Assembly (NCBI RefSeq): GCF_030463565.1
Contig: NC_134656.1
Location: 2,113,001 to 2,177,000 of the forward strand
Direction of reading: 5' to 3'
Source: Pelecanus crispus
Lineage: Eukaryota > Chordata > Aves > Pelecaniformes > Pelecanidae
DNA: 64,000 nt
Shown: positions 1 to 53,830 of the stretch, one piece after another
How positions within the stretch are numbered: position 1 is the first letter of the stretch
How the letters are laid out: every line of letters begins with the position of its first letter
The notes under the pieces: generated by a model
What the model saw: the letters and a program-made list of their open reading frames with translations, nothing else
Database searches by the model: none
Told to the model about the DNA's origin: nothing
Program-made: the position numbers and the translations under genes

Positions 1-4427
<4,427 letters not shown>

Positions 4428-7400
4428 AGCATGCTGGCTTCAGCTGCGTTAGTCATCTCTGTAGGACTTGTCTGCTTACCTGCTTTCGGTGCATTCGCCC
4501 TTCCAGTGGCACAGATTTCGGAGGACAGGAGATCGGTAGCGATATGAAAGATCTTTCTTCCAAAAAGAAAAGCCGCTTCCTTCTCTTCCCAGCGATAGCG
4601 CTCTTGGCTCGCACGGCGCGGGCATCGGCTTCTGTGGCACGTCTGAACGTTGCTGGTGTCACGTAGGAGAGACGAGCCGTCTTGTGAGGCTCTGTTGGCG
4701 TTTTCGTTTTGATGCCCGAATCCCCCCCTGTAAATACAAGCTTTAATTAGTGCTTGTATGGATTCTGAGGTTCAGCAGCTCCTCTGGTTTCTTCCCTAGC
4801 ATGCATTCCCATCCTGTCCTGTCTCCCTTTGTGCAGTTTCTTTACTGTTTGGCCCGTCTGATGCCGGTTCCTTGCCAGCAGATCCGATTTGTTGCTGTTT
4901 GCATGTCCTCAGAGGAGACGAGTGGAGTTCTCGGGGGGGAAGACCAGCAGCTGAGGGGAAGGGCTGGGCTTTTGTTTTAGTTTTTTTAGGTTTTTTTGCC
5001 ACAAGCCTGGTTTAGCTTGGTCTCCTCTGCTGGCAAGCTGCAGCACAACTCAGAAGTATTCCTCAAGCCTGAGCAGATGGAGCATTTTGCGATACTCAAG
5101 AGCGTATTTTTAGAGAACTTCTCCTCAATTTTTTAAATGTACATAGTATAACCTTATTCTTTTAGGTGTCCGAGTTCATTAAGCACATTCAGCACAGTGG
5201 TATTTTAGAGTAACAAGGCAAAATCCAGCAATCCCCGAAAGCCCTTTTGAAGGAACAACCTTTATTTGGAGCCGTTGGGAGACTGCACTTTCACAGCAGC
5301 CCCTGCTTTTGGTTGGGATGTTTGGGAAGGCTCTTGAAGTGCAAGTGGGAAAAAGCAAATTTGTGCAAGGAAAAGCTTTGTGTTTGGGACCCTTTATAAG
5401 CTGTCTTCAATTTTCTGTACTTGTGATCTGTATTATTTTGACCCCCCACTAAAAACCTGACTTTCTTGTGATCGTTGACCGAAAAGCTGTAATGTCTTAC
5501 ATGTTAGGATATAGCAAAAGTATCCAGGTTTGCGTATGCGCGTTATAGAATGTATTTAGTTGGAGGAGAAAACCCCTTATCACTTGTTTGGACAACATGT
5601 ATAAAATACAGCTTGGGGTGGGTTTTTTTTTTTGTTTCCTTGCGTTCTCTTTGAATGTGGTCTTGCCCTTTGACTCTGACTGGGAAGAGTGGGGTCTGAT
5701 AGCAGAAACCTTTGAACTTATCAGGCTCCCAGCACTCTGGGAACGTATCTGCCAGCGGTGGTTACACCAAGTTGTGCTACAGCCTTTTGCCAAAAAGGAT
5801 GAGAAGCCCGTCTTTTAACACTGAAGTAGAAACGGTTGGTCTTGAAGCGAAAACCTTGTTTTTTTCGGGTTTATAATGGAAACTCTCGTGCTTTCTCTTG
5901 AATAGCTGGTGAAAGAGTGTGAAGCTGCATTTTTGGTAAGGAGGGGTGTAGAGCACGGATATCCCGTGGAATTGTAGTTTCCCAAAGGTGAGTGAGAGGC
6001 GTTGGGAGTTGAGAGACTCTTGCTCAGGGATTTTGTGCCATCGCTGGCATCCTTCCTGTACGTGGGCTTCCGCAAAGGGGAAGGGAGGGGAGTTTGGGAA
6101 GGAGAACGGAGACATCGCTCTTGTGGAAAGGAGAGGGTAGACGTGTGGGGCGGGAACGTGGCCAGACAAGGATTCCAAGACTGAGTCAGAAACTGCAGGA
6201 GGAAAAAAAAAAAAAAAAGTTAAAAACCAGCTTTCAACGCGTGCTGTCCTTCAGCCCCTTGTGCTTCTCACGCGGCGTTTACTCTTCCTCCATAATGTGA
6301 TCTGCGTAAGTGCTCGGGCGTGGGGATTGCACCCCGCATCTCTGGGAAGGGAACGCGGCATTTCGGTGGCTGCGGCACTTCTGGCGATGTGCTCGGGAAG
6401 GTACGTAAATCCCCCTGCCCCGTTTGGCGGCTGTGGCGTTGAGATGGGGAAGGACGGTCGGGAGCGCAGCGGCGTGGCTGTTCTCGCCGGAGAGACTCCG
6501 TAATGAGCGTTTGGAACGTCTCCATCGAGCCGGGTACTGTGTGTGTGCCCGCGGATCGGGATCCGTGCGCTTCCCCTGCCCCTTGCTCGGGTGGTAGCAC
6601 CACGTCCCTCAAGGATTTGTTGGGAAAGGCTACCGGAGAGCCCGGGACCGAGAAAACACACGGGAAGGACTTGCTGGGGAGTTGCTCCACGTGGGTGGCG
6701 AGAGGAGAGATCGTTTCCCAGCGCCGCGCACGGAGACGCGGGCGAGGGGACCCTCGCTGGGCGCTGCCCGCGTCCTCGCAGCACCCAGCTCCTTTTGCCG
6801 CCCGCTCTTTGCATCCGCAGCTTCCCTTTCCCCCGCCCGGGGGGTGTGTTCCTTGGCTTGCTGGGGTTTGGGTTTGGTGTTTGTTTTTTTTTTTTTAGAT
6901 GAAAGGGATCATCAATCTTAGAGCCTTTTACTGTTTGTAGAAGTCTTTGTGTTTTTTTTAAATGGATTACGGCACCTACAGATTTTAACTATATATGGAG
7001 CTCAATAAACAAGTTATATGGGCCCTGTCGTCAGCGGCACGTTGTCGCGTATGCTGTGGTTCCCACTTTGCGTGGAGGAACGTTCTTGCCAAGCTAAGAG
7101 CTGGATTATTCAACCATTTGCTTTATCTCTTGCTAAAATGCACACGTTCCACTCTTCAGCGGAGCCTTGTTGCTGTCAGTTGTTTTGTTTTTTTTTATTG
7201 CATCTTGTACAAAAGCAACCGAAACTTGAGTGCGGGCGGTCTTCTGTTGATGTGCCTTGCTGAAAGCTCGGCGAGGAAGCACGCGGGGGGCACGGGACCC
7301 CCATGCGGGGAGGTGTTTTCGGGGTCTGGCGCTGGACAGTCGCTTGTACGTGGCACGCGGTTGTGAGCGCTGAGCGGGGTCAGCGAAGCCAGACCCCTAC

Positions 7401-7649: not shown

Positions 7650-8125
7650 AGAGCCCGGACGGGTCCCCTCTTAGCCGGGACCGCTCCCCCACAGCCGGAC
7701 CACTTCCCCCTTAGCCGGGACCGGTTCCCCCCCTTAGCCGGGACCGGTTCCCCCCCTTAGCCGGGACCGGTTCCCCCCCTAGCCGGGACCGGTCCCCCCT
7801 TAGCCAGGACTGGTCCCCCCCTAGCCAGGACCTGTCCCCCACAGCTGGACGGGTCCCCCCTTAGCCCAGACCGGTTCCCCCCCTAGCCAGGACCTGTCCC
7901 CCACAGCCGGACCAGTTCCCCCTTAGCCAGGACCTGTCCTGCTTAGTGGGACTGGTCCCCCCTTAACCAGGACTGGTTCCCCCTTAGCTCGGACGGGTCC
8001 CCCCTTAGCCCGGACCTGTCCCCCACAGCCGGACCGGTCCCCCCTTAGCCAGGACCTGTCCACCTTAGCCGGGTCCGGTTCCCCCTTTGCCGGGACCTGT
8101 TCCCCCTTAGCGGGACCGGTCCCCC
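7650..8125. repeat. C-rich minisatellite, unit about 20-25 bp
   Basis: Degenerate tandem copies of CCCCTTAGCCGGGACCGGTT-type units with runs of 5-7 C, roughly 20 copies. The complementary strand has regularly spaced G-runs, so G-quadruplexes are possible. It directly abuts the CpG-rich segment proposed as the C20orf204 promoter. Confidence 0.85.
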
Positions 8126-8640
8126 GCAGCCCCCGGCGTGACCCCCCGACCCCCTCTCCCTGCCTTCGCCGCCGCCTTCCCTTCCCCGGCCTCAGCCGGT
8201 GCCCGGGGGGAGCAGCCGGTGCCCGGGGGGGGCCGGTGCCCGGGGGGAGCAGCCGGTGCCCGGGGGGAGCAGCCGGTGCCCGGGGGGGCCGGGGCCGGGG
8301 CTGGGCCGGCGGCGGTGTGGCCGCCGTGTCCCGTCCCCCCCCGCGGCGGCCGGGCCCGTCCCCTCCCACCGTGGAGCCAAGTTCAAACCGCGGGCCCCGG
8401 CGGAGCGGGACGCGGCGAAGGGGCCGGGCCGGGCCGGGGTCCCCGGGAGCCGCCGCAGGCTCCGCGCCGGCGGCCCCCGCAGCGCCCGCGGGGCCCCATG
8501 GTGAGTGCGCCGGGGCCGCTGCCCCTTCCCCGGCCGGGGGTCGCGGGTGGGGGTGGCCCGCTGCACCCCCTGCCCGCACCCCCTGCCCGCACCCCCGCCG
8601 CGCCGGGACGGGGTGGGCTCGGCCCGGGTGGGACCCGCGG
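8126..8640 (+). promoter_or_regulatory. C20orf204: CpG island, candidate promoter and first exon of C20orf204
   Basis: Extremely CpG-dense sequence with several GGGCCGGG and CCGCGG motifs and no TATA box. It ends with an ATG at 8498-8500 directly followed by the strong donor GTGAGTGC. The location upstream of the C20orf204 exons, the CpG density and the donor make it the best promoter/first-exon candidate. The transcription start cannot be placed from sequence. Confidence 0.5.
8195..8300. repeat. 20-bp GC-rich tandem repeat inside the CpG island
   Basis: About five copies of a GCAGCCGGTGCCCGGGGGGA unit, some shortened. Each carries a run of six or more G, a good quadruplex former next to the presumed promoter. 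Confidence 0.85.
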
Positions 8641-11600
8641 TGGCCGGGATGGGGCTCGGGACCCCTCGGGACGCGGCCGGTTCTGCTGGGATGGGGCTTG
8701 GAGCGAGCGGGAGAGGGGTCGGGAAGGGGACTCGGACTGGTGGGGATGGGGTTGGTCCGGCCAGGAAAGGGCTTGGATCTGTGGGAACGGGGCTGGGGTC
8801 TGTCAGGATGGGGCTTGGATCCAGCTGGGAGGGTCGCGGTGGGATGGAGCCAGTGGGGAAGGGGCTCTGGTCCGGCTGGGAGGGCTGGTCCAGAGGGACC
8901 AGGCTGCCCGTGGCCAGGATGGGGCTGGGACCCATCCACAATGGGGCTGGGAGCCAGGTGGGATGGGGCTGGGACCCATCTGCAATGGGGCTGGGATCTG
9001 GCCAGCATGGGGCTGGGACCCATCTGCAATGGGGCTGGGATCTGGCCAGGATGGGGCTGGGAGCCGGGTGGGATGGGGCTGGGAGCCATCTGCAATGGGG
9101 CTGGGAGCCGGGTGGGATGGGGCTGGGACCCATCTGCAATGGGGCTGGGATCTGGCCAGCATGGGGCTGGGAGCCGGGTGGGATGGGGCTGGGACCGATC
9201 TGCAATGGGGCTGGGATCTGGCCAGGATGGGGCTGGGACCGATCTGCAATGGGGCTGGGATCTGGCCAGCATGGGGCTGGGAGCCATCTGCAATGGGGCT
9301 GGGAGCCGGGTGGGATGGGGCTGGGACCGATCCGCAGTGGGGCTGGGACCCATCCGCAATGGGGCTGGGAGCCGGGTGGGATGCGGCTGGGACCCATCTG
9401 CAATGGGGCTGGGAGCCATCCGCAATGGGGCTGGGATCTGGCCAGGATGGGGCTGGGACCCATCCGCAATGGGGCTGGGATCTGGCCAGGATGGGGCTGG
9501 GACCCACCGGAGGGTCCATCTCCAGCCGGGGGTGCTGGGGCTCTGGGTGGTGGCAGGGTCCCTTTGGACAGGAGGGGGTCGGGGACGGGGTCCCCCATCC
9601 CAGCGGGGCTCTGGGCAGGCAGCAGGCGTTGCCCCTCGCTGCCTGGAGCTGGCAGGAGTGCCAGCGGGAGCCGCTCTATCAATCATGGTGATTTCCCTTA
9701 TCTCCTCGTGTTTGCTGGAGGATTAGAGCCGAGGAAGAGATTAGCTTCCCCTGCCAGGCTGCGAGCGTCCTGCACCCGCGCTCCCCGGGCTGCCCCTTCC
9801 CTGCCAGCCCTCCCATGGGAAGGGATGCGCCTAATCCCAGCGCTGTCCTGCCCGCCCGCAGCTTGCCGCTGCGGGGATGGCAACGAGGGGAGAAGGAATA
9901 ACTGCAAACCGGCCGCTGAGCTCCTCTTCCTTCATCCCGAAGGGTGGGAAGCGATGGCCAGGATGGGGGGTTTGCCGGTTTCGTCTCTCCCCTGCACCCC
10001 TCTCTTGTCACCGCTGCTTCCCTGCTCTCTGTGGGGGTGGTGGGAAGCACCTACGGCACCCCCCGAGCTCCTGCCCCGGCTGCTCGCCGAGCTTTTTTAA
10101 CTGCAGGCTGCGCTTCCTCCCGTGCTGAGGGCTGAGAGGCTGGTGCCAGGCTCGGCTGCCTGGAAATGCTCTAAGTGGTGTGCTTTCTCCTGGAATTTGG
10201 TCCCAGTTGTTTAATAAGCCACTTCAGGGAAGTCATTCCCAGTTTAATGGTAAAATCGCATGGCCTTGTCTTCTTGGCGGCAGAGGCTTCCTGAGAGCAA
10301 CCCTTAGACTTTGGACAGGGTGTCCTCATGGAAGCAGCGCTCTCCTTTGGCGTCCTGCAGGACTGTACCCTCGGCTCTCCGCTGAATCGCCTCTGGGGCG
10401 AGAGCTCTCTGTGGCTCTGCAGAGAGCAAAGCCAGCGGCGCGGGGAGGCTCTCCCCGGCACGGAAGGCGCGTGGTGATTAAGGAAGCTGAAGAGCCCAGC
10501 GGGATTCGTGGCGGTTGCGTGTGGATCTGCTCGTCTCCTCGCGTGCGCTTCTGCTGCGAGGTGACGCCTGCGTCCGTGGGCTCCCAGACTTGCGGCGCGC
10601 TTGGGCTTCGCCTGGTGTTAAGCTGCCGTCGCCCCTGCTGAGCTGTGGGAGCGGGAGGGTGGGCAGTCTTCCTCGCCCTTTTGGAGCCGGGAGCAGCCCT
10701 TTACGGAGCGGGGAGCACGGAGCGGATGCAGGTTTTACAAACCCTCCAGGTTCCCACCGACGGGCAGGATGGATGGCGTCTACCTGGGCTCCCGCTTCAG
10801 CAAGGGAACTTCTTTCTTCTGGCTTCTCCGAGCAAAAGGCCAAGCCCGAGAGGCCGGCGTGGCTGGGACGGCAGCGAACCCGCCGAGATGCGAGCTGGGG
10901 CCCGGGGCGGGCGGGTGCTGGCAGCAGGCAGAGCTGCCGGCCCCTTCTCCCCTGCGTGCTTTGGCCGCAGCGCAGGGCTTGCGCGTTTGGAAGAAGCTGA
11001 GCTGCTTTCTGCCTGCCCGGACCTGATGCCCGGAGAGGGGGAGATGGGGGGGAGTTTTTGAGGGCTTTTGCCCGCAAACGGCAGATGATGGAAATGCCCC
11101 GCTGCCAGGATGGGGCCGCAGCGCTGGGCCATCTCTCAGCAACGCGGGGACGCGTCGGGCTCCTTTCCTGGCAGATGCCGTGCTTTCCATCCTCGCCCCG
11201 CTGCTGTGGGACTGCTCAAATATCCCCAGTCCCGGTCACCTGAGGTTGCGCTGGCTTTTCTTCAAGGCCCTGGCACTCATCCCTCGGAGGGTCCGGCCTC
11301 CCCCTCCCTGTGCTTCCCCGCCAGCTCAGATGTCAGCGCTTGGGTTTCCCCTCTCTGCCGGGGCCGGCTCGGGGCTGCCGGGAAGGCTTGGAGCTGGGAG
11401 GCAGCCGGGACGCGCTGGCGAGAGCAGGCGCTTGTGCTGCTTCGATCTGGCTCTTGCATGAGGGCACCCGAGCCTTGGGACGAGTCCGGGCTGCGTGGGA
11501 GCTGCAAAAAATGCTGAATAACTGCGTCCGTGCTGCGGGGTTTGCAGGGGTGCCGAGAGCATCCCTTCCGAGGGTGCCTGAAACCGTTGGCGTCAAGGCG

Positions 11601-14592
11601 TGGAGGTTTGCTGGCAGGGAACCAGGCGGCTCCCTGCCTCCTCTCCAAAAAGCAGGGCACGTCCCTTTGTGCTCCCCTTGATTTTCGGTGGTTGAGGGTC
11701 TGGGCTTGAAATGCCACCAGCTGGGGAGGTACTGGGGACCCTGTTGGGGCAGAGAGCTTGGGGACAGATCCTACAGGCTACAGCCATCCCTGCCACACCT
11801 CTGCGCCCGGTACCCGGCTGCTAGCACCGGAGAGAGCGCGGTGGGTGCTGCGGGCAGCACTGCCTGGACTGGGATGAAGCCGGAGCAGTTTCTCAAGGGC
11901 TTTGCTCCAAGACGATGCGGTCAGGCTGGGGGGATGTCCTCCGGGAGAGGAGGCAGGTGCTTTCCCTCCTACACACGCTGCATCTGCAGAGGCGGGAGCA
12001 GCATCCCTGCATCCCCGGCTTCCTTCCTGGCTGACACCGAGCACTTCCCCACGCAGATTCTCCCGCGGGCGCTCTCCTGCGCTGTTCTGCTCCTCCTGCT
12101 CGTCGCTGTGCTGAGCAGAGGGAAGAGGTGCAGCATCGCCAAAATCCTCCGGCAGTACCGCGCCGTCATCTTCCACGAGATCCAGAACCTGGTGAGCGGC
12201 GGGGCAGTCTGCCCGGGGCCCCAGCTCCCTGCTCCGGGGCATGCTGCCAAGCTGGATGCAGCCCCGCTACGGGATGCGGGTGGGAAGGGATGAACCTGGA
12301 AAGCTTAGAATGGGGTTGGCCACTTTGCTGGCGTTTCTGGGGGGAGCGCTGCGTTTAAATGGGGGATTCCTGCTCCGCGTGGGAGGCATGGATGCTTCGG
12401 AGTGCCTGATCTCCTTGCTTTATTTATCCAGAAAAACCTGAGTGGGTCAGAGGACAGGAGCGGAAGGGCCGGGCCAGCTTGTCGTTCAGACAAGGTGAGC
12501 ACCAAGGGACCCAGGGCTGGGGCATCGTGTGGGCTGAGCCCCCAGGGAGCCGTCGAGCCCCCCTCCCCGCCCGGGGCCGCCTGCTTCTCTCCTCTCCAGG
12601 ACCAGAAGATCCTGCTCTCCATCTACAACATCAGCATGTCCCTGCGGGAGGTGGCGGCCGGCACCCTGCGCAGCCCCGAGGAGCTGGCGGTGCGGAAGGT
12701 GGCCAGAAACACTGACTTCGTGCTCAGGGAAAACTGCAAGAAAATCAGCAAGGTGGGAACCCTGCCCCTTCCCAGTCACCCCAGTGGCTCCCAGTTCCGC
12801 AGCACATGGGCTGCAGGCAGAGCCTGCCCTGTTGTGTGCTCTCCTGGCTGTGCATCCTGGGGGGTGAAGGTCCGAGCTGGGGTTGGTGAAGGTCCGAGCT
12901 GGGGTTGTGAAGGTCCGAGCTGGGGTTGTGAAGGTCCATGCTGGGTTAGTGAAGGTCCGAGCTGGGGTTGGTGAAGGTCCATGCTGGGTTGGTGAAGGTC
13001 CATGCTGGGTTGGTGAAGGTCCATGCTGGGGTTGGTGAAGGTCCGAGCTGGGGTTGTGAAGGTCCATGCTGGGGTTGTGAAGGTCCATGCTGGGGTTGTG
13101 AAGGTCCGAGCTGGGGTTGGTGAAGGTCCGAGCTGGGGTTGTGAAGGTCCATGCTGGGGTTGTGAAGGTCCGAGCTGGGGTTGGTGAAGGTCCGAGCTGG
13201 GGTTGATGAAGGTCCGAGCTGGGGTTGTGAAGGTCCATGCTGGGTTGGTGAAGGTCCGAGCTGGGGTTGGTGAAGGTCCATGCTGGGTTGGTGAAGGTCC
13301 AAGCTGGGGTTGTGAAGGTCCATGCTGGGGTTGTAAAGGTCCGAGCTGGGGTTGTGAAGGTCCATGCTGGGGTTTGTGAAGGTCCGTGCTGGGGTTGTGA
13401 AGGTCCATGCTGGGTTGGTGAAGGTCCGTGCTGGGGTTGTGAAGGTCCGTGCTGGGGTTGTGAAGGTCCATGCTGGGTTGGTGAAGGTCCGTGCTGGGGT
13501 TTGTGAAGGTCCATGCTGGGTTGGTGAAGGTCCGAGCTGGGGTTGGTGAAGGTCCGAGCTGGGGTTGGTGAAGGTCCATGCTGGGGTTGGTGAAGGTCCA
13601 TGCTGGGGTTGGTGAAGGTTCATGCTGGGTTTGAGACTGGGGGATGCTGGTGGCACGTCCTGGTGAGCTTTAAGCTTGCCGAGGAAGGAAGTTCGGCTGC
13701 GGCAGTGTGGGACAGGCTGCTGGGTTTTTACCAGCAGCTCCCAAGTGGGTTTGTCTGCCCGTGCCGCCATGCCGCGGCTGGTGGGAACACAGAGCTTCGT
13801 CCCGGTGGGATGCTTGCCCAGTGGGTGGGCACACCCAGTCCCGCTCTTGCGCCCGGGTGCTTGTAGGCAGGAACTGGGATTTCTCCCCATAGAGCTGGTC
13901 TCGGCTCCCCCGGCATCCCCGGGGCTCTGCTGGGGAAACCCCGGCCGGGAGGATCTCCGATGGCAGCCACCAGCAACTCATTAACGAGCGGGGAAACCCC
14001 CGGGCAGCGAAGCCAGGCTCTGCCTGGCTCTGGCACGGTGCTGGGGTCACCCTCCCCGCCATCGCCGGGGAAATCGGCTGGGGCTCACCCTGCCGGGGGG
14101 TCTGCTGGTGTGGGGCGGAGGTGCCGCTGGTCTGGAAAGCTGCCCGCAGACCCAACCTGGCCGTCTGTCCTGGCGTGGATGTGCCGTGGGGTGTGTGCTG
14201 CCAGCTCGGGGGGGGGGGGGACGGCCAGCTCCGGGGACCCGAGAGCACGTCCTCGCTGCGGCCACGGGTGGTTTGGCCACCCTGACCTGCAGCTGTGCCC
14301 GCGCACACCTCGTAGGCGTGGGGGGTGATGTCCCAGGCGCGTCCTCGGTGCTGGGGCGGTGGCTTTTGTCCCCCTGACTAACGCCTGCGTGGTGGTGATG
14401 GGGAGTGTTTCTGCTCCCTCGGCATGCTGACCGCAGAGCCCGCCGCGCATCCCGGCACAGCCCCGGCGCTGGGGACCCGGCCACAGGAGGAAGCAGCTGC
14501 GGGAGATCAGGAGGAAGGCGGAGAGGCTGGCGACCTGCTGGGAGAAGCTCTACGCCCTGCACGCACCCCGCCGCGCCCCGCGGGACTCCTAG
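8498..14592 (+). CDS. C20orf204: C20orf204 orthologue: small secreted protein, five coding exons
   Basis: Coding exons: 8498-8500 (ATG only, inferred), 12057-12191, 12432-12494, 12600-12752 and 14437-14592 (stop TAG 14590-14592). All junctions are phase 0 with GT donors and AG acceptors. The product is 169 aa; human C20orf204 is about 189. Shared with the human protein, from memory: an LRQYRAVIF-type helix (residues 32-40), KNLS (47-50), ILLSI (71-75) and the C-terminal ATCWEKL-AL block. Residues 2-20 form a hydrophobic signal peptide. Cysteines 26, 63, 113 and 152 match human cysteines, and N48-L-S and N77-I-S are glycosylation sequons. A secreted, helical, probably two-disulfide glycoprotein is inferred; receptor and function are unknown. 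Introns 1 and 3 contain minisatellites. The three long internal exons and the last exon are secure. The start codon is the weak point: without the first exon, only a read-through start upstream of 12,057 is available. Confidence 0.85.
8645..9515. repeat. 22-bp G-rich minisatellite in C20orf204 intron 1
   Basis: Units of ATGGGGCTGGGA followed by CCCATCTGCA, TCTGGCCAGC or GCCGGGTGGG alternate as three 22-bp subtypes, about 26 clean copies from 8,930, with degenerate copies back to about 8,645. The subtypes occur in recurring higher-order combinations. No stop codon occurs in several frames of either strand, which creates spurious ORFs of about 500 codons. Confidence 0.93.
9516..12056 (+). other. 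C20orf204: Remainder of C20orf204 intron 1
   Basis: GC-rich unique sequence with no recognisable protein, RNA gene or transposon. It ends in the acceptor TTCCCCACGCAG at 12,045-12,056. Open frames here are short-range products of high GC. An unrecognised non-coding 5' exon of C20orf204 could lie here. Confidence 0.5.
12863..13632. repeat. 21-22-bp minisatellite in C20orf204 intron 3
   Basis: About 35 copies of GTGAAGGTCCGAGCTGGGGT-TG with the variants CATGCT and CGTGCT in the middle and GGTTG or GGTTGG at the junction. The G-rich strand is the sense strand of the gene. It fills nearly half of the intron between the exons at 12600-12752 and 14437-14592. Confidence 0.95.
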
Positions 14593-15475: not shown

Positions 15476-16460
15476 GTGGATGGGGCTGGCACGGCGCAGG
15501 GTCTGGGCACGGCACAGGGTCTGGGCACGGCGCAGGGTCCGGGCACAGCGCAGGGTCCGGGCACGGTTGCAGGGTCCGGGCATGGTTGCAGGGTCCGGGC
15601 ATGGTTGCAGGGTCCGGGCACGGTTGCAGGGTCCGGGCATGGGTGCAGGGTCCGGGCATGGGTGCAGGGTCCGGGCATGGGTGCAGGGTCTGGGCACGGT
15701 TGCAGGGTCTGGGCACGGGTGCAGGGTCTGGGCACGGTTGCAGGGTCTGGGCATGGGTGCAGGGTCTGGGCACGGTTGCAGGGTCTGGGCACGGCGCAGG
15801 GTCTGGGCATGGTTGCAGGGTCCGGGCATGGGTGCAGGGTCCGGGCACGGTTGCAGGGTCCGGGCACGGGTGCGGGGTCCGGGCACGGGTGCGGGGTCTG
15901 GGCATGGCGCAGGGTCCGGGCACGGTTGCAGGGTCTGGGCACGGTTGCAGGGTCTGGGCACGGTTGCAGGGTCCAGGCACGGGTGCAGGGTCCGGGCACG
16001 GTTGCAGGGTCCGGGCACGGTTGCAGGGTCCGGGCATGGTGCAGGGTCCGGGCATGGGTGCAGGGTCTGGGCACGGTTGCAGGGTCTGGGCACGGGTGCA
16101 GGGTCTGGGCACGGGTGCAGGGTCTGGGCACGGGTGCAGGGTCTGGGCACGGCGCAGGGTCTGGGCACGGTTGCAGGGTCCGGGCATGGGTGCAGGGTCT
16201 GGGCACGGCGCAGGGTCTGGGCATGGTTGCAGGGTCCGGGCGCGGGTGCAGGGTCCGGGCACGGGTGCGGGGTCCGGGCATGGGTGCGGGGTCTGGGCAT
16301 GGCGCAGGGTCCGGGCACGGTTGCAGGGTCCGGGCACGGTTGCAGGGTCCGGGCACGGGTGCAGGGTCCAGGCACGGTTGCAGGGTCTGGGCACGGGTGC
16401 AGGGTCCGGGCATGGTGCAGGGTCTGGGCATGGGTGCAGGGTCCGGGCATCCGGGCACGA
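15476..16460. repeat. 18-19-bp minisatellite, about 52 copies
   Basis: Tandem GGTTGCAGGGTCCGGGCAC units, with GGGTGC and GGCGC heads and TCTGG or TCCGG middles. One head is a base shorter, giving mixed 18/19-bp periods. Stop-free in several frames on both strands. Confidence 0.95.
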
Positions 16461-20305: not shown

Positions 20306-22151
20306 ATTCCCTTCCGTGGCTGCTTCCCGACGGGGTGGCTGCAGCCCCCGGCGCCACCGGCTCCATGCACCCTCCTCCCCGCCGCCGGAGCTGGAGCCAG
20401 AGCCGGCCGTCGGAGCCGGCAGGCCTCAGCACGGCGGGGAAGCCAGCGGGAACGGGATGCCAGGCTCAGCGGGAGCGCCAGCTCGCGCTGAGGGTGGATG
20501 CTGCCAACATGGGCCCCGATGGTATCGCGGCTCCCCAGGTGGGCGCTGGCTCCAGCGGCTCTCGACGCCCAGCGGGAGCCAGGCAGCGGCCAGGGGCCTG
20601 GCCAGACCCCGCTCCCCATCCCTGCCAGCCGGCGGGCGCGCGACGGCTCCGACACCGGCACGGGGCACATCCACGCCAAGCCGCCGAGAAGCCGGGGGGC
20701 TGCCGGGGCTCGGCTGGGGGTCGGGGGGGGACCGGGTTGCCTCCTGCTGCCGTGGCCCCCGGCCCCGCTGCTCGGCCTGCGGCATCCTGCGCCGGGGCCC
20801 ATTGTTCGGCCGCGCCGGGCTGCGGGGCAGGATTCCTTTGTCAGAGCTTGGCAATATTTTATTCTAACAATTAACCAAACACGCCCGGGCTCCCTAGCCT
20901 GTTTGTGATTATTGGAGGGCAAATTCCCCAGCCTCGCTCCCTCTTGGTGTCGGCTCCGCCTGGGGCTGCGCCGGGCAGTGGGGATCCAACCCTGCTCCCA
21001 CCAGCTTGGGGCTGGGGACCCCCAACTGCGCCCAGAGCCCCCCGCTCCTGCGGCCGGCGCTGGGGGGGGGGGGGTTTGGTTGCCTCGACCCCCTCGGGAG
21101 CCCGCGAGCATTGCCGACATTGTCTCTGCAGCAGCAGGATCCGTGGCGGCGCAGGGGCAGCGGTGACTCATGGATTTGGGGGGGTGGGGGGATGTGAATC
21201 ACAGCCCTTGCTCGCCGGGCAGGATGCGGCCCCGCACTCGCAGCTTGCCGCATGCCAGCGATGGACCGCAGGCTTTGTCCTCTGCGGGGTGGAAGCGGCT
21301 CGCTGCCCGGGGCGGGATGAGATGGGGCCGCTGCTCTTCCTTGGGGGGCCCCCAGCATCCCGGGATGCTGGCGCAGCTTTCCCAGCCCCAGCTTCGGGGT
21401 GGGATGAGGGTGCTGTGGGTGCTGTGGGATGCGGCTGCCTCCTGCGTCCTGGCTCTCCCCGAGGCTCCTCGCCGTGCTCAGGCTGCGTCCTCGTCGCCGT
21501 TCGCTGCACGGGTGGTAAAAAGAGCTGGCACCTCCCTTTGCAAACTGTCCTGGAGAGTAGATTGCCCAGCGCAGGTTATCAAACCCCTGTAAAATCCCTC
21601 GCTTGCAGCCAGCTCAGCTCATCTCGCTCCACCCTCCAGGCAGTGGGTGCTGAGTCCCTGGCCCCGTGCCGTGGCTGGAGCCGGCAGCGAGCTGGCAGCC
21701 CCGGCCGGGTGCTGCCCATCGTGGGCAGGGGAGTCCTGAGTGGGCGCTGGAGCCGAGGGTCGGGGCAGGCACCGCGGGTGATGCTGCCCACTGAGAGCGA
21801 AGCAGCCGGCACCAGTGCCGGCGCCCTGCGGCGGGGCCGTGCGGGTGAGCCGGAGGTTATTGGCCATCCCGGGGGAGACACCCTGAGCAGGTTGTTTCTC
21901 CAGTTGCTGCTGGGGATGACGGGATCCTGGGAGCAGCCAGGGCAGACGAGGGGGTTCGCAGCCGCAGGATGGGAGGGCAGAGGAGGGACCGGCACCGCGG
22001 TGCTGCCCCGGCCCTGCCAGCATCCTCGGCGGCCAGAGCCGGGCGTGGGGCAGGGAGCGGGCGCAGGCAGTGTCTCCTGCCCGCTGCTCCCCGCAGGTGA
22101 TGGGGGCGGAAAGGTACGACCCCCGTGTCAGCGCCCTGTCCCTCGCCGTGC

Positions 22152-23546
22152 CTAAACCAACTCCTTCAGAGCCAGGGCTCCTTCCTCGTCGGTGCCGTGT
22201 GGCCCCGGGCTCTCGGCCTGATCCTGGATCTTAAAATACAGCGAGTCGTCGAAGCAGAGCCGCTCGGGTGGCCGGGCCAGGCAGGGCAGCCGGAGTATGG
22301 TGCCCGCGAGCAGCCCGGCAAGCAGCGAGCAGCTGATGGCCACCGCCAGCCCGGCCACCTGGCACAGCGCCTGCCCGCCCGCCCCGCGGTCCCCCCACTG
22401 TCCCCCCGCCACCTCGCTGGCGTTGCCCCCAACAGGGGACACCTGGGAGAAGCGGGACCCGGAGGTGTCCTTGGGTGCCACCAGGATGGCCACGGAGCTG
22501 GCCACAGCGCCGAGGATGCCAGGCAAGCCGTGGAGGTTGTGGATGCCGCACTGATCCTGGAGCTTGAGCTTCCTCGCCAGGAGCGGGGTGAGGAACGTGA
22601 AGCCAAGGACGCACGCCACGGCCGAGAGGCTGCCCAGGGCAAGAGCAGCCACCGGTGGCATGGCCATGTCAGCCACCGCGCCAATGGCCACCCCGCCGGC
22701 CAGGCTGCCGTTCTGCAGGTTGCCGGGGCTGAGCTTGCCGTCCCTGTCCAGCAGGCTGGACACTACCACGGTGGTCACGGCGCTGGCACTCATGGCCAGG
22801 AGGGTGTTCAGGATGGCACGATGCTGGGCATCTCCCGGTTGGCAGAGGACAGCCACAAAGCTGGGCCAGAAAACCCAGAGGATGAGCGTCCCCGTGAGCG
22901 ACAGGAGGTCGGAGCGGGGTGTTGGGGTCTCTTTGGGGTGCATCGGCTGCTGCGCCGCCCCAAACAGACCCTTGGACACGCCGAGGCCGAAATAGCAGGA
23001 GAAGACGTGGACCGTGATGGTCCCCCCCACATCCAGGACGCCCAGATGGGTGACGATGGCCAACTCACTGGCGAGGTAGACAGGGACTTCACAGGCGGCC
23101 ACGACGAGGAGCTGGCAGGGGCTGGTCCTCCCCAGGACGGCCCCCACGGAGATGAGCACCGTCACGGCGGCGAACTCGGCAGTGAGGACATTGTGGAGGT
23201 CCAGGTGAGCCTGGCCGTGGTGGAAGTGATAGAGCAAGCCCTGCAGTGCCAGCGCCCATTGCATGGAGAAGTTGAGCAGGAGGAAGTTGTGGGTGACGGC
23301 GCTGAGCCCGTAGCGGGGCAGGAACGTCAGCAGGAGCCCCAGCCCCACCACCAGCATCACCTGGATGTCCTGGAAGAGAGGGAAGATGCCGTAGAGCTGG
23401 TTGGCCACCCAGTTGGCATCCTCTGCCTGCACCGAGGGCTTGTCGTAGGTGACGAAGAGGGCGAAGAAGAGGAGCAGGGCGCCCTGGAAGACCCCCAGGG
23501 AGAGGGGCAGGAGGCGGCGGGGGCGGGTGGGGGGTGGCGTGGCCAT
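22152..23546 (-). CDS. Intronless Rh-family ammonium/ammonia transporter
   Basis: A single open frame of 464 codons with ATG at 23546-23544 (G at -3 and +4, a good initiation context) and stop at 22154-22152. It matches RhAG/RhBG/RhCG proteins (SLC42) along its whole length: a hydrophobic start, about twelve membrane segments, DVGGTITVH at 172-180, WPSF at 227-230, NLHGLPG at 337-343 and the cytoplasmic SPP/FDD-type tail from 426. Residues equivalent to RhCG F130, D177, H185, F235 and H344 are F125, D172, H180, F230 and H339, at a constant offset of five, so the twin-histidine pore and phenylalanine gates are intact. The usual extracellular N-glycosylation loop after the first helix is shortened and lacks a sequon. 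Vertebrate Rh genes normally have about 10-11 exons, so the intronless form suggests retroposition. Subfamily (RHBG, RHCG or Rhcg-like) cannot be decided here. Confidence 0.93.
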   Translation of the reverse strand: MATPPPTRPRRLLPLSLGVFQGALLLFFALFVTYDKPSVQAEDANWVANQLYGIFPLFQDIQVMLVVGLGLLLTFLPRYGLSAVTHNFLLLNFSMQWALALQGLLYHFHHGQAHLDLHNVLTAEFAAVTVLISVGAVLGRTSPCQLLVVAACEVPVYLASELAIVTHLGVLDVGGTITVHVFSCYFGLGVSKGLFGAAQQPMHPKETPTPRSDLLSLTGTLILWVFWPSFVAVLCQPGDAQHRAILNTLLAMSASAVTTVVVSSLLDRDGKLSPGNLQNGSLAGGVAIGAVADMAMPPVAALALGSLSAVACVLGFTFLTPLLARKLKLQDQCGIHNLHGLPGILGAVASSVAILVAPKDTSGSRFSQVSPVGGNASEVAGGQWGDRGAGGQALCQVAGLAVAISCSLLAGLLAGTILRLPCLARPPERLCFDDSLYFKIQDQAESPGPHGTDEEGALALKELV

Positions 23547-23661
23547 CCCGGGGTGGACAGGAGGGGACGGTGACTGGTGTCACCACTGGGCGTGGGGCGG
23601 CAGCCCGGCAGCTCTTGCGGGATGAGCTCCGCTCGCTCCTACATCAGGGTTTTACGTCCAT

Positions 23662-23676
23662 GGTTAATTTTTAACC
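23662..23676 (-). promoter_or_regulatory. Near-perfect HNF1 palindrome upstream of the Rh gene
   Basis: GGTTAATTTTTAACC contains GTTAATTTTTAAC, one mismatch from the HNF1 consensus GTTAATNATTAAC, and lies 116 bp upstream of the Rh start codon. HNF1 factors drive kidney, gut and liver genes, which suits an epithelial ammonium transporter. The surrounding AT-rich patch (23,640-23,800) stands out from its GC-rich neighbours. Confidence 0.5.
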
Positions 23677-42875: not shown

Positions 42876-45800
42876 CTAACCGGTGATGCAGGGGCTATAG
42901 TAAACAGCGCTGCTGGCATCGGACAAGGCGGATATCAAGCTGCTCTCCTCGCAGGAGATGCTTCTAGGAGTCACTTTGGACAGGGAGACATGGTAAGGGA
43001 GTCCCGAGGCTTCGGGACGAGTCCTGCTCATGTTCAAATACTGGTCAAACTCATTGCGGTCAACGTCTGTCCACAGCTCGGTTTGGTTCAAGTGATCCAC
43101 GCTCTCCATGTGGTGGGCTTCGGGTGGGGGCGAGAGCTGGCCCAGGTGGGCGGAAAGCCCGTTCTGAGTTCCCGAGCACATCTGGTTGTAGTATATGCTG
43201 GAGGGATGGGGAGTCCTCATGGCGTCGGCCAAGTGCGACGGGGTCTGCGCGTAGGGCACCGCCACGTCCCGCCCCATGCACTTCTCCTGGGGAAACTCCA
43301 TCTGGTGATGGTGGTGGTAGCCGCGAAAGGGCATCATGTTGCAGTCATCCTGCATGTGCGGAGGGAAAAACGCCGGCTCGGTCTGTTCCAAGACATCCAA
43401 GGGAGACATCTCAGGAGTTGGCAAGCCATAGTTTTCAATATCCGACCCCATGGAGTGGAGTTCTCTGAAGTGGTTAAGTGGGGGAGGCTGGGGGTGGCCC
43501 GGCTGGCTGCCGCCATGGTGACTCATGCTGAAGTTGTCACTGCAAGGCTGGGAAAGGTTATGCAGGAGGATATTGGGTTCCATCCTCTTGATTTTCTTGG
43601 CTTGCTTCTTTCTCCTTGGGCGGGTACTTGTAGTTGGGGTGATCCTGGAGATGCTGGATTCGCAGTCGCTCGGCCTCTTCCACAAAGGGACGTTTGTCGC
43701 TGGCACTCAGCGCTTTCCACGACTGGCCTGGAAGGGGAAAGCGAAGCTCTGTGACAGCGGCTCGGCCACCCGGCGCTGGCCGGGGCGCGGGGGCACCCGG
43801 GGAGAGGGCACCCTTGGGGTGGGAAGGGCTTCTCCGGCCGGTTCGGCACCTGAGCGGGGTCCTGATGCTGGCACGATTTGGGGCCGGGGAATGGGAGCCC
43901 AGGCAGGGCTGTGCCAGCAGCAGGCTCGGGCTGTGCCCAGCACTTCGGTGCAGTGGGAGAATGGGGGTGCAAAGCCCCGGGGGGGGCCGCAGGAATCCCT
44001 CTGCCAGTGCAGGGGATTCTGCCTCCCGCTGCCCCTCGGCACAGCCTGGTCCCCGGGGTGCCTGCTTCCCTGCATCCCGCATCCGCAGCCCCGCTCCTCT
44101 GCAGCCCCAATCGCCCATCCCCAAACCCCGCAGCCCCGTGTCCTGAATCCCATGTCCCCGCACCCCGCAGCCCCCCGTCTCCGCATCCTGCTGCCCTGTC
44201 TGGCCATATCCTGCTTCCCATAGTCCCGCATCCTGCACCTCCGTCTACACATATCCTGCTTCCCGTGTTCCCACATCCCGCATCCTACAGTTGCGTATCC
44301 CGCATCCTGCAGCTCTGTATTCCCATATCCTGCATCCCCGCAGCTGCGTACCCCACAGCCCTGTATCTCTGCATCCCGCAGCCTCCTTCCCCTGCATCTT
44401 GCACACATGTAGCTCTGTATCCTCACCCCCCACATCCCCGTATTCCCACATCCCCTAATATCGTATCCCGCAGCCCTGTAGCTGCGCCCCACAGCCCTCG
44501 ATCCTGCAGCCCTGCATCCTTGCAGCCTGCAGCCGGCATCCCTTAGTCCCAGATCCTTACAGTTTGCATCCCGCAGCCCTCTAACCTTGCAGCCACCAGC
44601 CCCGTATCCCGCAGCACCCTATTCCTGCATCCCGCAGCATCCCATCCCTGTAACCCAGCTCCTGCACCCCCGTATCCTCACAGTCCTCATCCTGCAGCCC
44701 CGTATCCTCACAGCCAGCATCCCGCAGTCCTGTACCCTCGCAGCCTGGCCGGCACAGCCCCGTATCCTTGCATCCCATGTCCCACTGCCTCATATCCTAG
44801 CAGCCCGCATCCCAATGCCCCGTACCTCTTCATCGCACACTCCCAGCCCTGTATCCCTGCATCCCAATACCCCCTACCCCTGCAACCCAAATCCCCAGCC
44901 CCATATTCCTGCATCCTGCTGCCCCGTACCCCTGCAGCCCACATCTCCAGCCCTGTAACTCTGCATCCCAGTGCCCTGGACTCCCGCAGCCTGCACCCCC
45001 AGCTCCATATCCCTGCATCCCGCTCCCCTATGTTCTTGCAGCCCACATCCACAGCCCCATAACTGCCTGTTCCTGCATCCCCAGCCCCATACACTCACAT
45101 CCCTGCATCCCCAGCCCCGTACCCCCTCATCCCGCAGCCCTACAACCTTGCAGCCCGCATCCCCAGCCCTGTACCCCCACATTTCTTCATCCCAAGCCTC
45201 ACACCGCTGCATCCCTGCATCCCCAGCCCCATACCCCTGCATCCCGCTGCCCTACACTCTTGCAGCCCGCATCCCCAGCCTCGTATCCTGGCATTCCTTC
45301 ATTCCCAGCCCTGTACCCCCACATCCCAGCATCCCCAGCCCTGTACCCCCGCATCCCACAGCCCTACACCCTTGCAGCCCACATCCCCAGCCCCGTACCC
45401 CCACATCCCTTCATCCCCAGCCCTGCACCCCTGTACTCCTTCATCCCCAGCGCTGTACCCCCGCATCCCACAGCCCTACACCCTTGCAGCCCACATCCCC
45501 AGCTCTGCATCCCCGCATCCCTAGCCTCATACCCCCACATCCCTTCATCCCCAGCCCCATACCCCCACATCCCTTCATCCCCAGCCCCATACCCCAGCAT
45601 CCCCAGCCCTGTACCCCCGCATCTCTTCATCCCCAGCCCCATACACCCGCATCCCTGCATCCCCAGCCTCATACCCCCGCATCCCTTCATCCCCAGCCCC
45701 ATACCTCAGCATCCCCAGCCCCATACCCCCGCACCCCTTCATCCCCAGCCCCGCACCCCCGCACCCCCGCGCCCCCAGCCCCGCACCCCTTCCTCCCGCA

Positions 45801-46218
45801 GCCCGCCCCGCTCACCCAGCATCTTGCTGAGCACGGCGTTGTGCAGGTCGGGGTTCTGCTGCGCCAGCCGCTTGCGCTCATCCTTCGCCCAGACCATGAA
45901 GGCGTTCATGGGCCGGCGGATGCGGGAGTCCTCGCCGGCCTTGCCCTCGGCGCGGCCGGCCGGGGGGCTGTATCCATAGCCCGGCTCGGGGCTGGGCGAG
46001 CGGCTGGGGGCCGCGCCGGGGGCCGCGCCACCGGGGCCGGGGCCGAAGGCGAAGCCGGGCTCGGGGCTGGGCGTGCGGCTGGCGGGGGAAGCGGCTCCCG
46101 GGGGGCGCGGGAAGGCGAGCCCGGGCTCAGCGGCCGGCACGGCGGCGGTGACCCATGAACAGTCGCCCCGGGGTTGCGATATCTCCTCTCGGCAGTAGTT
46201 AGACTCAGATATATTCAT
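42876..46218 (-). CDS. SOX18: SOX18, two exons, with a single-base frame break in exon 2
   Basis: SOX18 is a SOXF HMG-box factor of endothelial and lymphatic development. Exon 1 is 46218-45816, exon 2 is 43727-42876, joined phase 1 (G|GC) across a GT-AG intron. Exon 1 encodes [12 protein letters not shown]..., SP-rich sequence and the first half of the HMG box from about residue 99 ([20 protein letters not shown]). Exon 2 encodes the rest of the box to HPNYKY (169). After Y169 the normal frame ([10 protein letters not shown], a basic NLS) needs one base fewer than is present: TAC-CCGCCC instead of TAC-CGCCC. The resumed frame then runs 248 codons without a stop to ...YYSPCITG and carries the SOXF motif DRNEFDQYL. 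The intended product is 417 aa; as written it would stop at 43,558 after 190 residues. An assembly or read error is the likeliest cause, since everything downstream is intact. Confidence 0.92.
43622..43624 (-). other. SOX18: Extra base (G-run on plus) breaking the SOX18 frame
   Basis: Plus-strand CTTGGGCGGGTACTTG has GGG where the SOX family reading frame calls for GG. One surplus base in the 3-G run shifts HPNYKY-RPRRKK into PPKEKE... and a stop 21 codons later. It is the only frame problem in the gene. Confidence 0.85.
44140..45790. repeat. Minisatellite filling the SOX18 intron
   Basis: CCCCAGCCCCATACCCCTGC-ATCC and related 20-24-bp units (CATCCCTGCATCCCCAGCCC, CGTACCCCCGCATCCC), degenerate from 44,140 to 44,700 and cleaner from 44,800 to 45,790. 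It makes up about 80% of the 2.1-kb SOX18 intron. Confidence 0.9.
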
Positions 46219-52600: not shown

Positions 52601-53167
52601 TTGCGCTACATTGCGGACAAGGATGCTGCTTTCAAGCAGGGGAGAGACAGGGAATTAAGGAAGGCAAGGCAGCGATCACACCTCCGCCGCTTTGCGTCTC
52701 AGTCCTCAGGAGCTCGTCAGCAAGGGCTGAGCTGGTTATTGCCTCTCCACTCCTTAAAATGAAACTCCAGCGGCAGGCGAGCAGGGGAGAGGGGGCGGCT
52801 GGCTGCACCCCTGCACCCACCGAGCCCCGCGGCTGGCAGCAGGAGGGTCGCCCATCCTCTCCCTTGCCGGGAGGGCTGATGCAGCAGCGCAGGGCGTCTC
52901 CATCTGGGAAAGGTTTGCTGTTCTCAAGAGCTGCTGTGGCTCCCGACATGTTTTAACTTAGCGCGAGGCATTACCTCACCGGCCCGCCGCAGATGGCAGA
53001 TGGCAGATGGCTGCTGGCTGTGCCGCGCTCCTCTCTCCCCTCTTCCCGCTTTGTCTGCAGCCCCTGAACCCAGCGCTTTCCACTCGGGTTTCCCACGCGC
53101 TGGCCGGTTTGCTCACAGGGTCCTGGGGAGGGGGGTGCCTGGTTTCTGAGCGTCACCCCAGCCAGGC
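46666..53167. other. Gene-free region upstream of SOX18
   Basis: No exon of TCEA2 or any other known gene was recognised. Contents: T/C-rich stretch 46,740-46,850, A18 tract 47,795-47,812, direct repeats of AAAGCACCCAAAA and TGCCTGGGTGCA at 48,918-48,980, interrupted T tract 49,444-49,493, and AT-rich islands at 50,130-50,260, 51,180-51,300 and 51,720-52,260. The last contains CATTAATGAATTACC, a homeodomain-type motif. Confidence 0.5.
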
Positions 53168-53830
53168 CTGGAGGAAGAGGAGCCCTTTGCAGCATTCCTG
53201 GAGGAAGGGGAACTCTTTGCAGCATCCCTGGAAGAAGGGGAGCCCTTTGCAGCATCCCTGGAGGAAGGGGAGCCCTTTGCAGCACCCCTGGAGGAAGGGG
53301 AACCCTTTGCAGCACCCCTGGAGGAAGGGGAACCCTTTGCAGCATCCCTGGAGGAAGGGGAACCCTTTGCAGCACCCCTGGAGGAAGGGGAACCCTTTGC
53401 AGCATCCCTGGAGGAAGGGGAAACCTTGGCATCATCCCTGGAGGAAGGGGAACCCTTTGCAGCATCCCTGGAGGAAGGGGAACCCTTTGCAGTATCCATG
53501 GAGGAAGGGGAGCCCATTGCAGCACCCCTGGAGGAAGAGGAACCCATTGCAGCATCCCTGGAGGAAGAGGAACCCGTTGCATCGTCCCTGGAGGAGGGGG
53601 AACCTTGGCATCATCCCTGGAGGAAGGGGAGCCCATTGCATCATCCCTGGAGGAAGAGGAACCCATTGCAGCACCCCGGAGGAAGGGGAACCCATTGCAT
53701 CATCCCTGGAGGAGGAGGAGCCCATTGCAGCATCCCTGGAGGAAGGGGAGCCCTTTGCAGCACCCCTGGAGGAAGGGGAACCCATTGCATCGTCCCTGAA
53801 GGAGGGGGAGCCCTTTGCAGCACCCCTGGC
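53168..53830. repeat. 30-bp minisatellite, about 22 copies
   Basis: Unit GCATCCCTGGAGGAAGGGGA-ACCCTTTGCA with point variants and a single one-base shift at about 53,600 (GAACCTTGGCATC). The period is a multiple of three, so each frame encodes a decapeptide repeat, for example SLEEGEPFAA on plus. The repeats end in unique sequence on both sides, and no start codon, splice signal or domain supports translation. Confidence 0.93.

Follow-up and report, generated by a model that had tools for sequence, protein, structure and literature searches.

Rhp2 is a class of Rh proteins known mainly from shark kidney. The shark protein described by Nakada et al. in 2010 is reportedly 476 aa long and encoded by a single coding exon, and is said to lie basolaterally in the renal tubule and to transport methylammonium. 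We take the single coding exon to be a mark of Rhp2. Excerpts of two papers place RhP2 in a clade apart from RhAG, RhBG, RhCG and Rh30 (PMC3844404), and record Rhp2 transcripts in dogfish kidney as well as five Rh proteins, Rhp2 among them, in the elephant shark (PMC5568229). Among the matches listed in literature searches that cover subscription journals thinly, no title or abstract start names avian Rhp2, and the available portions of PMC4625885 and PMC5209957 contain nothing on Rhp2 in birds. The similarly named teleost rhcgl1 was considered and set aside; PMC9672858 treats it as a rhcg2 duplicate.

Here we describe a single-exon Rh gene in the bird Pelecanus crispus. The window, that is, the whole stretch of 64,000 nucleotides that was analysed, corresponds to C14:2113001-2177000, and the genome searched for relatives comprises 1.31 Gb in 310 contigs.

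Reading frame, pore and fold

The gene is annotated as follows.

22152..23546, minus strand: single-exon CDS of 464 aa for an Rh-family ammonia channel, probably Rhp2, called from the ORF, homology, pore residues and an AlphaFold2 model

The frame runs unbroken from ATG to stop and contains no introns; the complete Rh gene proposed by the first-pass annotation is found exactly there. Its product matches Pfam PF00909 (Ammonium_transp) over residues 24-420 (1.7e-56; 192.1 bits, cut-off 23.2) and, among solved structures, human RhCG over residues 8-440 (1.1e-96), RhAG (3.8e-95), Nitrosomonas Rh50 (7e-55) and RhCE (1.1e-41). GC content at codon positions 1, 2 and 3 is 0.69, 0.45 and 0.88, which is a coding pattern. 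ORF length alone proves little in this GC-rich stretch, with stop-free runs of at least 475 codons arising in 8 of 300 sequences of 6 kb simulated under a first-order Markov model. It is the homology across nearly the full length that marks the ORF as real, and a chance ORF was excluded on the Pfam match and the homology to RhCG and RhAG, unremarkable as the length is. Antisense to the gene a frame of 482 aa is open at 22125-23573 (+), probably a by-product of the GC-rich codon pattern. Rfam gave 0 matches at the gathering threshold.

Long frames do arise by chance in GC-rich DNA, and the ORF might accordingly be an unexpressed dead copy, its frame still open through chance or because it died recently. 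We find this barely credible, because homology begins close to the start codon and reaches residue 440, the five classical pore residues are all present and GC3 is 0.88. In simulations of neutral decay from the bird RHCG CDS, with indels ignored, 0-3 of 1000 frames were still free of stops once identity had fallen to about 45%, and 0-1 of 1000 when it was about 35%. Survival this rare speaks for the protein having long been under selection, and neutral decay of the frame is unlikely.

The five residues in question, F130, F235, D177, H185 and H344 of RhCG, recur in the window protein at an offset of -5, as F125 and F230 (gate) and D172, H180 and H339 (pore). Two positions depart from RhCG, S181 being T176 and N236 being V231, so the original statement that every pore and gate residue is kept at a constant offset holds for the classical five and is otherwise slightly too strong. 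Lungfish Rhcg also has Thr at the S181 position, according to an excerpt of PMC5657625. The bird RHAG model keeps four of the five classical residues, bird RH30 three and human RhCE none, and the loss of pore residues typical of RH30 (RHCE/RHD-type) is absent from the window protein. Near-invariant columns, defined as those at least 97% identical among 31 reference proteins, number 39, and are kept at 30 positions in the window protein, 32 in bird RH30 and 28 in human RhCE; general conservation therefore fails to separate the three, and the pore residues do.

The AlphaFold2 model, built from an alignment of 27 rows, is all helical (mean pLDDT 76.7, pTM 0.79). Foldseek returns RhCG (3hd6) as its best match (E 7.6e-23, TM 0.76/0.87), with RhAG also among the best; the top seven are Rh proteins, followed by Amt/Mep. 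The window protein is a member of the Rh family by sequence and fold.

Genomic neighbourhood and candidate regulatory elements

Three further features of the window concern the setting and possible regulation of the gene; the roles of the second and third are putative.

42876..45990 (upper limit approximate), minus strand: SOX18, with an intron interrupting its HMG box, 5'-side neighbour of the Rh gene and synteny anchor
23662..23676, minus strand: palindrome GGTTAAAAATTAACC, candidate promoter element, about 116-130 bp upstream of the ATG
20858..20863, minus strand: candidate poly-A signal, the first AATAAA 3' of the stop, about 1.3 kb from it

A SOX18 neighbour had been reported at first pass, and the minus strand does carry an HMG-box gene at about 42.9-45.9 kb, which we take to be SOX18 by virtue of its HMG box and where it lies. 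Exons matching TCEA2 lie at C14:2181160-2193975 (+), past the window end at 2177000, and the order Rh(-), SOX18(-), TCEA2(+) presumably fits the human 20q13.33 segment. A Pfam search of 19 long ORFs of the neighbourhood, including nine at 7.9-21.2 kb on the side of the putative C20orf204 of the first-pass annotation, gave no family above cut-off.

Several other observations were made in this neighbourhood. In SOX18 exon 2 the reading frame shifts just past the HMG-box stretch HPNYKY (window about 43622-43641, minus), and the conserved continuation sits in another frame, open to 42876; either the assembly is in error or the frame is truly broken here. A C-rich minisatellite array with a GC skew of about -0.5 lies within the SOX18 region at 44807-45804, and large GC-rich minisatellites are present at 7652-9506, 12853-13633, 15488-16449 and 53167-53829.

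The palindrome GGTTAAAAATTAACC is perfect, and its core has one mismatch to GTTAATNATTAAC, which we take to be the HNF1 consensus. Allowing one mismatch, GTTAATNATTAAC has three matches in the window, GGTTAAAAATTAACC being one of them, against 0.00 expected in shuffles; the HNF1 call is this consensus match, and the pattern used in a separate search was derived from the site itself. HNF1 drives kidney, liver and gut genes. The gene may be expressed from its own promoter through this HNF1-like site, and as a motif the palindrome hints at kidney, gut or liver as the place of expression.

Rh paralogues and phylogenetic placement

Four Rh loci were found in the genome: the window gene, RHCG (C7), RHAG (C3) and RH30 (C16), of which the last three are intron-bearing and the window gene is the sole intronless one. 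Splice-aware alignment gives bird RHCG eight introns within the aligned span. From its FQD exon onward the RHAG model has seven, which agree in order and phase with the final seven RHCG introns; the last two, next to a gap-rich part of the alignment, are presumed to fall in the same columns. The RH30 model carries these seven as well, together with four others, some of them doubtful. None of the eight introns of the shared RHCG set occurs in the window ORF, which crosses the whole of their span unbroken, and the gene is as intronless as first described. Three queries for RHBG did not find it in this genome; it is either lost or missing from the assembly.

One feature of the RHAG locus was also recorded.

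C3 about 127307.8-127308.0 kb (locus L013 about 4330-4530): bird RHAG Cys site, from alignment

Here bird RHAG has Cys at the RhCG gate position F235 (WPSCNS), with a 3-residue alignment gap shortly after. Frames near the RHAG locus are presumably CR1-like repeats.

The window gene is deeply divergent from the three other Rh loci. Its protein is identical to bird RHCG at 163/421 positions (39%), to human RHCG at 167/422 (40%), to human RHAG at 159/395 (40%) and to bird RHAG, the highest value, at 151/352 (43%); identity to three bacterial Rh50 rows ranges from 132/393 to 139/397 (34-35%). Bird RHCG and bird RHAG share 187 of 352 residues (53%), and between bird and human the identities are 329/432 (76%) for RHCG and 244/348 (70%) for RHAG.

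Trees were built from RHCG, RHAG and RH30 rows of bird and human, with no RHBG. The bird RHAG row begins at the FQD exon, the first coding exon not being assembled, and bird RH30 and human RhCE are likewise represented by partial rows. Bacterial relatives amount to 64 loci, of which 27 Rh50 proteins serve as outgroup in the largest trees; the other 37, among them L094, a short fragment, were excluded by choice and not under a formal rule. With the full outgroup the six vertebrate rows (RHAG, RHCG and RH30) together form the sister group of the window protein at 95/95; once the long RH30 branches are removed, this protein falls outside the four RHAG/RHCG rows at 96/93. Three outgroup subsets place it outside again (87/91, 96/95 and 85/70). 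When ten slow Nitrosomonas, Nitrospira and Nitrosospira rows are the sole outgroup it joins RHAG at 69/47, so its placement is unstable. The phylogeny that had been suggested as a check, run here with RHAG, RHCG, RH30 and bacterial Rh50, thus gives a divided answer: outside RHAG and RHCG in five of six overlapping data sets, and with RHAG, unsupported, in one. The window row is long-branched and of unusual composition, and the tree output warns that it could be joined falsely to the bacteria, whose branch is also long. Transfer from bacteria was considered and is not indicated, since the protein groups on the vertebrate side of a branch supported at 100/100. Two scans of viral contigs for relatives confirmed none.

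AU tests were applied to the competing placements. Joining the window protein to RHCG of human and bird gave p = 0.037 with the full outgroup, 0.266 with the slow one and 0.056, 0.026 and 0.105 with the three subsets. For RHAG the values were 0.049 (full) and 0.073, 0.017 and 0.102 (subsets), the two being already joined in the slow set, and for RH30 the value was 0.176 in the full set, which is not a rejection. A clade with bird RHCG alone was rejected (0.006 full, 0.008 slow), and one with bird RHAG alone was borderline (0.052 full, 0.166 slow). Among 11 informative quartet sites, eight unite the window protein with bacteria against RHCG=RHAG, one unites it with RHCG and two with RHAG, a balance in favour of the outside placement.

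These results bear on whether the gene is a fast-evolving retrocopy of RHCG or RHAG from the bird or sauropsid lineage. Such an origin would suit a gene without introns among Rh genes that share an intron set, and the borderline values give no clear rejection of a clade with RHAG of the bird alone. It is nevertheless very improbable, given identities of 39% and 43% where the bird and human orthologues retain 76% and 70%, the rejection of the clade with bird RHCG, and the eight of 11 sites shared with bacterial Rh50. A recent retrocopy of RHCG is ruled out by identity and AU tests, and its RHAG version only borderline. Visual inspection of the sequence around the gene showed no poly-A tail and no flanking duplication, as is expected if the gene is very old. 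The functional retrogene of the first-pass annotation stands, then, to the extent that retroposition is a possible origin, but not with bird RHCG as its source; the alternative of a lineage-specific gene is unsupported, given the distance from the bird's own RHCG and the rejected clade with it. The old paralogue, possibly lost in mammals, that was also proposed is the better half of that reading, matching the known Rhp2 clade and falling outside in most data sets.

Retroposition could also be much older, in an early vertebrate, from RHCG/RHBG, RHAG or RH30 after the paralogues had split, in which case Rhp2 or a similar clade would be nested within the vertebrate genes. This is a question of origin and is compatible with the window gene being Rhp2. 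The slow-outgroup tree and its p-AU of 0.266 for RHCG favour it, as does the result for RH30, and long-branch attraction could pull the window protein outward; against it are the outside placement in five of six data sets and the full-outgroup rejections of RHCG and RHAG. We consider it a serious possibility, though rather unlikely.

Rhp2 and the comparison with known systems

Absence of introns, similar length and the deep split together fit Rhp2. We think it likely that the window gene represents Rhp2 in the bird, as an orthologue of this old Rh gene with a single coding exon, this orthology being drawn from descriptions of Rhp2; belonging to that reading as a whole, and held with the same assurance, is that the gene predates the bird-mammal split. 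It probably predates the RHAG/RHCG split too. The gene is, in short, real and intact and of an ordinary kind, probably the Rhp2 of a bird. Its product would most likely form a trimeric membrane ammonia channel, in which the F125 and F230 pair would gate the outer pore and D172 with the twin histidines H180 and H339 would act in NH4+ deprotonation and NH3 passage.

In mammals RhBG performs the basolateral ammonia step, and birds excrete uric acid. A bolder proposal, which we regard as improbable, is that the gene belongs to a class of Rh genes that arose before any of the intron-bearing ones of vertebrates, has lacked introns since early vertebrates and is kept in birds under an HNF1-driven renal or enteric promoter, where it may replace the basolateral RhBG ammonia step. 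If this were true, a uric-acid excreter seemingly without RHBG in this assembly may use an Rhp2-like channel for basolateral ammonia.

Under the Rhp2 reading, this bird genome has retained an intact ammonia channel despite uric-acid excretion, and the gene is a testable candidate for avian renal or intestinal ammonia handling. Its map position by SOX18 and TCEA2 offers a fixed point for tracing the putative loss of Rhp2 in mammals. It also warns against reading every intronless paralogue as a young retrogene.

Among known systems, Rhp2 of sharks and other vertebrates presumably shares with the window gene a single coding exon and a length of about 470 aa. Published work describes it as a separate vertebrate Rh clade with transcripts in dogfish kidney (PMC3844404, PMC5568229); the window gene comes from a bird and is likened to it by published description rather than by sequence. 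RHCG, in human and on bird C7, resembles the window protein in fold, in length and, with an offset of -5, in the residues of pore and gate, but differs in identity (39-40%), in the eight introns of the bird gene and at S181T and N236V. RHAG, on bird C3, has the highest identity and has F130, D177, H185 and H344 in common with it, but bears introns and carries Cys at the F235 position, where the window protein keeps Phe. Bacterial Rh50 of Nitrosomonas and Nitrospira is, like the window gene, intron-free and of the same fold, at 34-35% identity over three rows; the window protein, however, lies on the vertebrate side of the 100/100 branch.
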